Source of the DNA: Deltaproteobacteria bacterium
GTDB lineage: Bacteria; Myxococcota; Myxococcia; Myxococcales; JAHFDP01
NCBI GenBank assembly: GCA_023248955.1
Contig: JAHFDP010000050.1
Location: 1-32,602, forward strand
Reading direction: 5' to 3'
DNA length: 32,602 nt
The notes under the pieces were generated by a model. That model did not search any database and was not told where the DNA came from. It worked only from the letters and a program-made list of their open reading frames with translations. Each line of letters begins with the position of its first letter. Positions within the stretch are counted from its first letter, which is position 1. The position numbers were made by a program, and so were the translations under genes. Positions 10,372 through 13,302 of the stretch are shown here, in pieces.

Positions 10372-12309
10372 TCACCCTTCGGCGACCAACTCCTGTTGCT
10401 CCGCCCAGCGTTCGTACAAAACGGCCAGCTCGTCTTTCGACGCCTGATAGGCCGACATCACAGGTCGCGCGCGCGCGAAATCGGAAAAAAAAGCGCCATC
10501 GGCGAGCAGCGCTTCACGTTCCTTCTGCTCCGATTCCAACGCGGCGATCCGCGATTCGATCCGCGCGATCTCCTCTCGAATGGGACGCTCGCGGACGGAT
10601 TTTTCCTGACGCGCTTGCGCTTCGAGGCGCCGCTGCTCTTTGCGTCCGCTGGTACGATCGCTCGAAGCGTGCAACGCGTCCGTCTCCGCGGCGGCGGTGG
10701 CTAGCAACTTTTGATGGTGCAGAAAATCGTCGAGGTTGCCGGGATGATCTTCGACGCGCCCGCTGGCCACGTTCCAGACGCGCGTGGCGAGCTGGTTCAC
10801 GAACCTTTTGTTGTGCGACACGAAGAGCAGCGTCCCCGCAAATCCGCGCAGCGCCTCGATCAGCGCTTCGCTGGAATCGAGATCGAGATGGTTGGTCGGT
10901 TCGTCGAGAAGCAAAAGATTCGCCGGCACCACCAGCAACTTCGCCAACGCCACGCGCGCCCGCTCGCCACCGGAAAGCACGCCGATGCGTTTTTCAACAT
11001 CGTCGCCCGGAAAGAGAAACGCGCCGAGCACGCCACGCACGTAGCTCTGCGGTTTGTCGGGAACCAGCGCGGCGATCTCCTCGAGCACCGTGCTCCCCAC
11101 CGTTAACTGATCCGCGTGCGACTGCGCGTAGTAACCGAGCGCCACGTTGTGCCCGAGGTGCACCGCGCCCGCGTCTTGTTCCAAAGTGCCAGCGATCAAT
11201 TTCAGCAAGGTCGACTTTCCCGCGCCGTTGGCCCCGATGACCGCCACACGTTCTCCGCGCAGCACTTGCGCCGAGAGATCGCGGTAGATCATTTTCTCGC
11301 CGAAGGACTTGCCGAGCGATTCGATCCGCACCACTTCGCGACCACTGCGCGCCGCTTCAGGAAAGGAAAACCGCAGCGTGGCGCGCGACTCGCGAACTTC
11401 GATGATCTCTTCTTTTTCGAGCTGCTTGATCCGGCTCTGTGCCTGCCGCGCCTTGGTGGCCTTGGCGCGAAAGCGATCGATGAACGCTTGCGTCTCGGCG
11501 CGTTTGGCCGCCTGCCGCTCAGCGCGCGCGGCGAGCTGCTCTTCCTCTTCCACGCGAAGCGAGCGGTAACGTTCATAGTCACCGCTGTAGCTGCGCAGGC
11601 CTTCCATCTCAAACGAGACCACGCGATCGATCTGCCGATTCAAAAACTGGCGATCGTGCGAGACGAGCATGAGCGCTTTTTTCGAGGTGCGCAGAAAATC
11701 GTCGAACCACTCTTGCGTCGGAATGTCGAGATGGTTGGTCGGCTCGTCGAGCAGGAGGAGCTCGGGATCTTGGAGCAGAAGCCCCGCCAACGCCGCGCGC
11801 ATCTTCCAGCCGCCAGAAAATTCTTCGGCGTTGCGCGCGAGATCCGCCGTCGTAAATCCGAGCCCGCCGAGAATGCGCTCGGCGCGATGGCGACCGTAGT
11901 GCTCTTCGAAATGATCGAGCTCTTCATGCAAGTCGGACAGTTCCTGCGCTAGCTCCAACGCTTCTGCCTCGACTGGCGCTCCAGCCAGCGCTTCCTCGAG
12001 CAAGCTGAGCCGCGCTTCGAGATCGGCGCGTCCCGGAACAACCGAAAGCACCGACTCCACCAGCGTTCCTTCCGGCAACGTAGAGAGATCTTGCGGCAAG
12101 TAGCCCGCCACCGCGCGGCGCATGAGCTGGATCGATCCAGAATCGGGCGCCAGCCGGCCGGACAAAACTTTAAGCAGCGTCGACTTCCCCGTTCCGTTCG
12201 CGCCGACGAGCCCAATGCGATCGCGCGGCCCGATGGTGAACGACGCCTCGTCGAAAATCACCTTCGGCCCGAAGGAGAGCGACAGTGCTTTAACGATGCA
12301 GAGGGACAC
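10372..12309 (-). CDS. ABC-F family ATPase (translation or ribosome-associated)
   Basis: 645 aa with two ABC domains and no membrane segment, the plan of ABC-F proteins that act on ribosomes. Domain 1 has Walker A GANGTGKST (36-44), signature FSGGWKMR and LLLLDEPTNHLD. The charged interdomain linker follows (arm region EEEQLAARAERQAAKRAE). Domain 2 has GANGAGKST, LSGGERARVALAKLL and a second LLLLDEPTNHLD. The C-terminal 90 residues form a charged coiled coil, as in Uup or YheS types. GTG 12309 is chosen because it places IVKALSLSFG at the conserved N terminus; a TTG at 12324 is possible. It is the first gene of a run with the agmatinase-family gene. Its upstream region is taken up by tandem palindromic repeats. 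Confidence 0.92.
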   Translation of the reverse strand: MSLCIVKALSLSFGPKVIFDEASFTIGPRDRIGLVGANGTGKSTLLKVLSGRLAPDSGSIQLMRRAVAGYLPQDLSTLPEGTLVESVLSVVPGRADLEARLSLLEEALAGAPVEAEALELAQELSDLHEELDHFEEHYGRHRAERILGGLGFTTADLARNAEEFSGGWKMRAALAGLLLQDPELLLLDEPTNHLDIPTQEWFDDFLRTSKKALMLVSHDRQFLNRQIDRVVSFEMEGLRSYSGDYERYRSLRVEEEEQLAARAERQAAKRAETQAFIDRFRAKATKARQAQSRIKQLEKEEIIEVRESRATLRFSFPEAARSGREVVRIESLGKSFGEKMIYRDLSAQVLRGERVAVIGANGAGKSTLLKLIAGTLEQDAGAVHLGHNVALGYYAQSHADQLTVGSTVLEEIAALVPDKPQSYVRGVLGAFLFPGDDVEKRIGVLSGGERARVALAKLLVVPANLLLLDEPTNHLDLDSSEALIEALRGFAGTLLFVSHNKRFVNQLATRVWNVASGRVEDHPGNLDDFLHHQKLLATAAAETDALHASSDRTSGRKEQRRLEAQARQEKSVRERPIREEIARIESRIAALESEQKEREALLADGAFFSDFARARPVMSAYQASKDELAVLYERWAEQQELVAEG

Positions 12310-12330
12310 GTCCCACAATACCAATTAGAT

Positions 12331-12480
12331 TCGGGGCAGACGCGAAGGTCGGCTTTGCCGACGAGCGCCTTGGGGGGAGAGCCCCAGCGCCTCCTGTCTA
12401 GCGGTAGAGTCGGGGCAGGCGCGAAGGTCGGCTTTGCCGACGAGCGCCTTGGGGCAGAGCCCCAGTGCCCCTCTGTCTAG
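12331..12480. repeat. Two tandem 71-bp palindromic repeat units
   Basis: Unit 1 is 12331-12401 and unit 2 is 12410-12480, with a period of 79 and an 8-bp spacer. Both start TCGGGGCAG and end CTGTCTAG and differ by a few bases. Each carries a perfect hairpin GTCGGC-TTT-GCCGAC (12348-12362 and 12427-12441) and a GC clamp (GGGGC-AGA-GCCCC in unit 2). It looks like a REP/MITE-type dispersed element duplicated in place. It fills most of the 192-bp gap between the divergent ABC-F and Nit1-type genes. Confidence 0.85.
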
Positions 12481-12501
12481 GGGGGCGGAGGGGGGTACCT
12501 A

Positions 12502-13302
12502 GTGAAAGCAGCCGTGTGCCAGATGAACAGCGGCGTCGATCGTGCGGCGAATTTGCGCACAGCGCTAGCGCTGCTCGACGAAGCAACCGAACGCGGCGCA
12601 CACTTCGCCGCACTTCCCGAGACCTGGGAATACTTTGGTGACGCGAAGGAAAAAGTTTCGGGCGCCGAGCCGCTTGGCGGTCCGACGCTGTCCGCGCTTC
12701 GCGCCAAAGCAAGAGCGCGCGCGCTGACGGTGCTCGCGGGCTCCGTCGCCGAGCCCGCATCGAACGGGAAGATATTCAATACCTCTGTTCTCATCGGACC
12801 AGATGGAAACGATCTCGCCGTCTATCGCAAACGCCATCTCTTCGACGTCGACGTTCCCGACGGCGCACGCTACCGCGAATCGGAAAACGTTCTCGCGGGA
12901 AATGATCTGGCGCTCGCCGACACCACGCTTGGGCGCATCGGACTTTCGATCTGCTACGACCTGCGCTTTCCCGAGCATTACCGTGCGCTCAGCGAACGCG
13001 GCGCCGAAATTCTCTGCGTCCCGAGTGCCTTCACCGAAATGACTGGCCGCGCGCATTGGGAACTTTTGCTTCGCGCGCGCGCGATCGAAAATCTCTCCTT
13101 CGTGCTCGCGCCCGCGCAAGTCGGCCGCCACTCGGAGAAGCGCGTCACGTGGGGACACGCCATGATCGTTTCACCGTGGGGCGAAGTGCTCGCCGAGCGA
13201 CCAAACGATGTCGGTGTCGCTGTTGCGGAGATCGATCTTGGAAAACTACGCGAACGGCGGCGCCAGCTCCCCGCGCTTAGCCACCGGCGTCCGCTTTCGT
13301 AG
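12502..13302 (+). CDS. Carbon-nitrogen hydrolase, Nit1/deaminated-glutathione amidase type
   Basis: 266 aa, nitrilase superfamily. The catalytic triad is visible as Glu40 (LPETWEYFG), Lys110 (YRKRHLFDVDVPDG) and Cys151 (ICYDLRFPE). The combination YRKxHLFDVD plus CYDLRFPE is typical of the Nit1 branch, whose known members hydrolyse deaminated glutathione as metabolite repair. The start is GTG 12502 with a purine-rich ribosome site (GGAGGGGGG) a few bases upstream. The tail overlaps the convergent small membrane-protein gene by 26 bp. The amidase call is firm; the exact substrate is inferred from the family branch. Confidence 0.9.
   Translation: MKAAVCQMNSGVDRAANLRTALALLDEATERGAHFAALPETWEYFGDAKEKVSGAEPLGGPTLSALRAKARARALTVLAGSVAEPASNGKIFNTSVLIGPDGNDLAVYRKRHLFDVDVPDGARYRESENVLAGNDLALADTTLGRIGLSICYDLRFPEHYRALSERGAEILCVPSAFTEMTGRAHWELLLRARAIENLSFVLAPAQVGRHSEKRVTWGHAMIVSPWGEVLAERPNDVGVAVAEIDLGKLRERRRQLPALSHRRPLS

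Follow-up and report, generated by a model that had tools for sequence, protein, structure and literature searches.

Descriptions of small palindromic repeats usually place them near the ends of genes. Among the systems closest to the one reported here, the REP and REPIN sequences of the GTAG and CGTC super-families are tagged palindromes lying near genes, in pairs and in some cases inside genes near the N-terminus; in the account given in PMC3733652, a REP is defined as a 20-40 bp stem with an unpaired GTAG or CGTC tag at one end, tagged REPs mostly adjoin the 3' end of the upstream gene, and there are CGTC families without a dedicated transposase. The Rickettsia palindromic elements (RPE), as described in PMC10969869, measure ~100-150 bp, belong to one lineage and are in some cases carried in frame in genes for unrelated proteins. 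The BOX, RUP and SPRITE repeats of pneumococcus, together with ERIC, are presented in PMC3049150 and PMC2229807 as small, structured and interspersed, and as able to act on RNA once they are transcribed.

The repeat described here occurs as a tandem pair between an ABC-F ATPase gene and a Nit1-type gene (nit1) in a 32,602-nucleotide stretch of DNA from a myxococcal genome (the window). It is ~90 bp long, contains three hairpins and terminates in GGAGGGGGGTAC. It represents a new family, but one of an already known kind of small repeat, having the several dispersed copies with conserved hairpins by which small interspersed palindromic repeats are generally recognized. As with REPs, its copies are dispersed palindromes close to genes, partly paired and in some cases intragenic near the N-terminus, and the CGTC families likewise have no dedicated transposase; it differs from REPs in its three hairpins over 90 bp, in having no end tag and in having no RAYT in its genome, and whereas REPs are located close to the 3' end of upstream genes, its right end abuts start codons at 3/8 sites. 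The resemblance to RPE, as these are described, lies in being palindromic, dispersed within one lineage and in some copies in frame inside unrelated protein genes (here grpE and a LivM-type permease); the differences are that there are only eight sites here, mostly intergenic, and that the lineage is another one. With BOX, RUP, SPRITE and ERIC it shares the general character of a small structured interspersed repeat, but it has no modular box structure apart from one nested copy; those repeats presumably also differ from it in sequence and architecture. In the literature on such repeats found with Shine-Dalgarno or ribosome-binding terms, titles and abstract openings describe no repeat as supplying a Shine-Dalgarno sequence.

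Extent of the element and the tandem pair

An earlier note on this DNA had reported two 71-bp units with identical ends and internal perfect hairpins, filling almost the entire gap between the ABC-F and Nit1-type genes. Both 71-bp stretches are present (12331-12401 and 12410-12480), with the ends quoted there, and the pair does take up most of the space separating the ABC-F ORF (start at 12324, or perhaps at GTG 12309) from the nit1 GTG at 12502. Their length and exact ends had to be revised, however, as the element does not stop at CTGTCTAG: in the alignment of copies, the other copies extend ~19 bases beyond it, through GGGGGGCGGAGGGGGGTAC, which places the right end of unit 2 at 12499 and the length at ~90 rather than 71 bp. 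The description of the hairpins as perfect applies to the second hairpin of unit 2 but not to that of unit 1 (GGGGGG-AGA-GCCCC). The left end of the element is GCGGGGCAGG. Its right end, GGAGGGGGGTAC, is also found in copies away from protein starts (before tRNA-Ser, inside livM and grpE) and is therefore part of the element rather than of the host site.

Identity is 96% over the opening 50 bp of the pair (12326-12375 versus 12405-12454), at a spacing of 79, and an exact copy of the hairpin GTCGGCTTTGCCGAC is found at both 12348 and 12427. If as many as 2 mismatches are allowed, this hairpin sequence has 4 matches in the window against 0.19 expected, a number reached by 0/100 shuffles. The sequence CCTTGGGG is common to units 1 and 2 and is found in no other compared copy; the pair therefore looks like the product of a local duplication followed by decay. 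Table 1 gives the features of the locus and the sites of all copies.

Table 1. Features of the nit1 locus and sites of the element in the genome
Feature	Location	Strand	Evidence or context
ABC-F ATPase gene, start TTG 12324 or GTG 12309	10372..12324	-	PF00005, PF12848, PF16326
Unit 1, apparently decayed local duplicate without both G-runs of the third hairpin	12331..12406	+	Covariance model match 12331-12403, E 2e-4
Unit 2, full ~90-bp element, three hairpins, end GGAGGGGGGTAC	12410..12499	+	Covariance model match 12410-12499, E 2.1e-14 (one of the six sequences used to build the model)
Hairpin 1 of unit 2 (GGCGC ... GTCGGC TTT GCCGAC ... GCGCC)	12418..12448	+	Folding and copy alignment
Hairpin 2 of unit 2 (TGGGGC AGA GCCCCA)	12450..12464	+	Folding and copy alignment
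Hairpin 3 of unit 2, CCCCTCTGTCT pairs with GGGCGGAGGGG, covers the Shine-Dalgarno-like sequence	12468..12493	+	Predicted folding
Shine-Dalgarno-like GGAGGGGGG of the element	12487..12495	+	6 nt before the nit1 GTG
Carbon-nitrogen hydrolase gene (Nit1-type), GTG start	12502..13302	+	PF00795, E 6.1e-63; homologues align from residue 1-7
Element copy, two units	Window	+	Between ABC-F gene and nit1
Element copy	C27		Before tRNA-Ser (tRNA confirmed)
Element copy	C49		Before PTS EIIA gene (Pfam naming)
Element copy	C67		Inside N-terminus of LivM-type permease/ATPase ORF, in frame
Element copy	C62		Between rsfS and rlmH, antisense
Element copy	C48		Inside grpE N-terminus, in frame
Element copy	C84		Between DUF6754 gene and unassigned ORF; carries nested repeat
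Element 5' fragment	C113		Between presumed hprK and rapZ, antisense

Copies across the genome and in other genomes

By the terms of the earlier note, absence of the unit from the rest of the genome would have counted against a mobilised element. A search of the whole assembly (3.83 Mb, 116 contigs, 95.6% complete) placed the element at seven other sites, as five full copies, one full copy with a nested repeat and one 5' fragment, so that it is clearly dispersed. BLAST rows with E > 0.02 (17/25) were taken as chance and dropped. A covariance model built on six copies gave ten matches at E <= 1 in this genome, nine of them at E <= 0.005, six of these nine being the model-building sequences themselves, which match by construction; the counts leave out the tenth match, which is doubtful (C66, E 0.68). 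Pairwise identities among copies range from 69% to 91% and suggest a division into two subfamilies; L007 and L008 have the same alternative stem in hairpin 1.

The element is in sense orientation to the downstream gene at 6/8 sites, an orientation bias that is not significant with eight sites. At the rsfS-rlmH and presumed hprK-rapZ sites it is antisense and offers no Shine-Dalgarno sequence (we take the neighbours of the C113 fragment to be hprK and rapZ, the gene names serS, LivH and P-type ATPase being likewise presumed). At two of the eight sites, grpE and the LivM-type permease, ORF reading and predicted translation indicate that the element keeps the frame open and is read in phase close to the N-terminus; in GrpE homologues of relatives this stretch is not seen. 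Selection for stop-free frames was considered and rejected, as freedom from stops in all six frames is also found in 5% of random 90-mers from the window and in 5% of dinucleotide shuffles.

Beyond this genome, the covariance model found the element in 0/59 other genomes of the order set, 0/146 of the class set and 0/194 of the phylum set; these sets overlap, genomes were scored with strict filters on limited candidates per genome (72, 29 and 22 for the order, class and phylum sets, respectively), a procedure by which weak relatives may be missed, and the relatives listed in the order-set search included no genome of the same family. A pattern of hairpins 2 and 3, which demands uninterrupted C6 and G6 and would miss decayed copies (unit 2 itself has CCCCTC), found 0 matches in viral contigs and none in plasmids or phages; its two hits in a large genome collection were G/C runs without the rest of the element and were discarded. 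Within the genomes searched, the element family is confined to this lineage, a restriction typical of small palindromic repeats.

Other repeats are found in the same genome. A second, more numerous palindromic repeat with the core GAGCCAGCCCAGCTTCGCTGGGTGGCGGAGGGGGA has 33 matches at E <= 0.01 (for example L068-L075, from 1501) and is found in 0/39 other genomes at E <= 1e-6. A third repeat, of 57 bp, occupies 14 places including the one nested in the C84 copy (for example L133-L136, from 1501), with three in tandem at C86:21944-22116. The strongly self-complementary stretch L004:2540-2660, across which an ORF reads a PPPFTGEGQGGG-type peptide, is probably a further palindromic repeat; its weak matches to miRNA-type Rfam models are far below threshold and were rejected.

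Conservation of the fold

RNAalifold applied to six copies recovered three hairpins, with four base pairs changed on both sides, two of which depend on L007, a copy with a shifted stem alignment. In hairpin 2, a U-A to C-G change on both sides is seen in 2/6 copies, and in L007 and L008 the hairpin 1 stem GTCGGC/GCCGAC is exchanged for a different but perfect stem. These paired changes, along with the swapped stem of hairpin 1, argue that the fold, in DNA or RNA, is maintained while the sequence changes. Set against shuffled sequences, unit 2 stands out in folding energy (z -3.69), and unit 1 (z -0.81) does not.

Proposed mobility of the element

A mobilised REP or MITE was the origin suggested in the earlier note, with an association with REP-associated transposases as a point to check. 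The dispersal that this implies is borne out, but the association is not supported: a profile search for Y1_Tnp (PF01797) in the element's own genome, 95.6% complete, gave 0 matches, the same search finding matches in 5/14 known genomes as a control. A REP or REPIN element moved by a RAYT transposase would account for a repeat that is short, palindromic, dispersed, mostly intergenic and found in a tandem pair. Besides this missing Y1_Tnp match, its ~90 bp and three hairpins stand against a single 20-40 bp stem, and the alignment of copies has no unpaired GTAG or CGTC tag at the ends, as the definition in PMC3733652 would have it, all of which makes this origin very unlikely. Nor do we give much credence to a classical MITE that originated from a DDE-transposase insertion sequence, even though the element is small and dispersed and would need no coding capacity: its two ends, GCGGGGCAGG and GGAGGGGGGTAC, do not form an inverted repeat, and when flanking sequences were compared for target duplications in seven copies, they shared only 3-4-mers at non-matching places, with no convincing duplication. 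The transposase search covered the Y1_Tnp family.

One copy has itself been the target of an insertion. Nested in the C84 copy is the 57-bp repeat, which belongs to another family and is flanked by CTG at either side; removing this insert restores the family consensus CCCCCCTGTCTAGGGGGG of the element. This shows that the C84 copy already existed as a target when the 57-bp repeat inserted, and says nothing about the element's own mode of moving. We infer that the element itself has moved, probably through an enzyme that copies or transfers it in the form of a DNA hairpin.

The translation start of nit1

For nit1 in the window, the GGAGGGGGG of the element is the only Shine-Dalgarno candidate. 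Its duplex with the anti-Shine-Dalgarno sequence has an energy of -12.5 kcal/mol; in six nit1 homologues, out of 25, the leaders give -3.8 to -10.7 kcal/mol. The G-rich end lies 3-4 nt upstream of a start codon at three of the eight sites, namely nit1 (CTA-GTG), the PTS-EIIA gene (ATCA-ATG) and the C84 ORF (ATT-ATG). The chance of three in eight copies lying this near start codons is P 0.0005-0.0018 when 3600 genes and 10-15% noncoding DNA are assumed, a value computed after the pattern was seen and to be read as a rough guide. At these three sites the G-rich end would serve as a Shine-Dalgarno sequence, partly masked by hairpin 3. The predicted masking varies, with a mean unpaired probability of GGAGG of 0.03 at nit1, 0.20 at EIIA and 0.40 at the C84 ORF. 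At nit1, positions 12483-12498 have predicted unpaired probabilities of no more than 0.14 in two longer folds, and folding the last hairpin alone raises the values at 12494-12497; freeing GGAGG is predicted to take ~5 kcal/mol. Because the sole Shine-Dalgarno candidate is predicted to pair in hairpin 3, a supplied but dampened translation start of nit1 seems likely.

These same observations could be read as a cis-acting regulatory RNA of nit1, of the thermometer or riboswitch type, kept for regulation and with the tandem copy as a second module: the three-hairpin fold is conserved with compensatory changes, the nit1 Shine-Dalgarno sequence is predicted to be masked, and start codons directly follow three copies. 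We regard this as improbable, as copies are also found ahead of a tRNA gene, within two coding regions and, in antisense orientation, in two gene pairs, the downstream genes have no obvious pathway in common, the DNA preceding nit1 in relatives appears unrelated, and an Rfam search returned no model match over the element. A further reading gives the translational effect a larger role, the repeat being a mobile translation-start module that carries its own lidded Shine-Dalgarno sequence, is preferentially fixed a few bases before start codons and imposes the same masked start with each insertion. This is unlikely, if somewhat less so than the regulatory RNA.

The earlier note held that the promoters of both flanking genes must be located within the repeat or be provided by it. 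A scan of 12150-12620 for sigma-70 consensus promoters found none, a consensus that promoters of this lineage may not fit. On the other side of the pair, we presume from family resemblance that the ABC-F gene starts at GTG 12309 (MSLCIV...) rather than at TTG 12324. No ABC-F gene is found within the flanking ~1.5 kb per side in 25 relatives with nit1, and the nit1/ABC-F neighbourhood therefore seems specific to this lineage.

Conclusions

We think it probable that the element is a non-autonomous dispersed palindromic repeat of ~90 bp with three hairpins, which landed ahead of nit1, was duplicated there, and spreads passively, supplying and dampening translation starts only incidentally. One copy would have been inserted between the ABC-F gene and nit1 and then doubled in tandem, the upstream duplicate later decaying with the loss of its two G-runs. 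Copies would survive where they are least harmful, that is between closely packed genes, just before start codons, or in frame in flexible N-termini. The G-rich right end could replace a Shine-Dalgarno sequence and, at nit1, the pairing of hairpin 3 with GGAGGGGGG would yield the supplied but dampened start.

If this is true, the replacement of the next gene's Shine-Dalgarno sequence by a G-rich end, along with the in-frame reading in grpE, would show repeats settling in packed operons, and such repeats could reset the translation of neighbouring genes.
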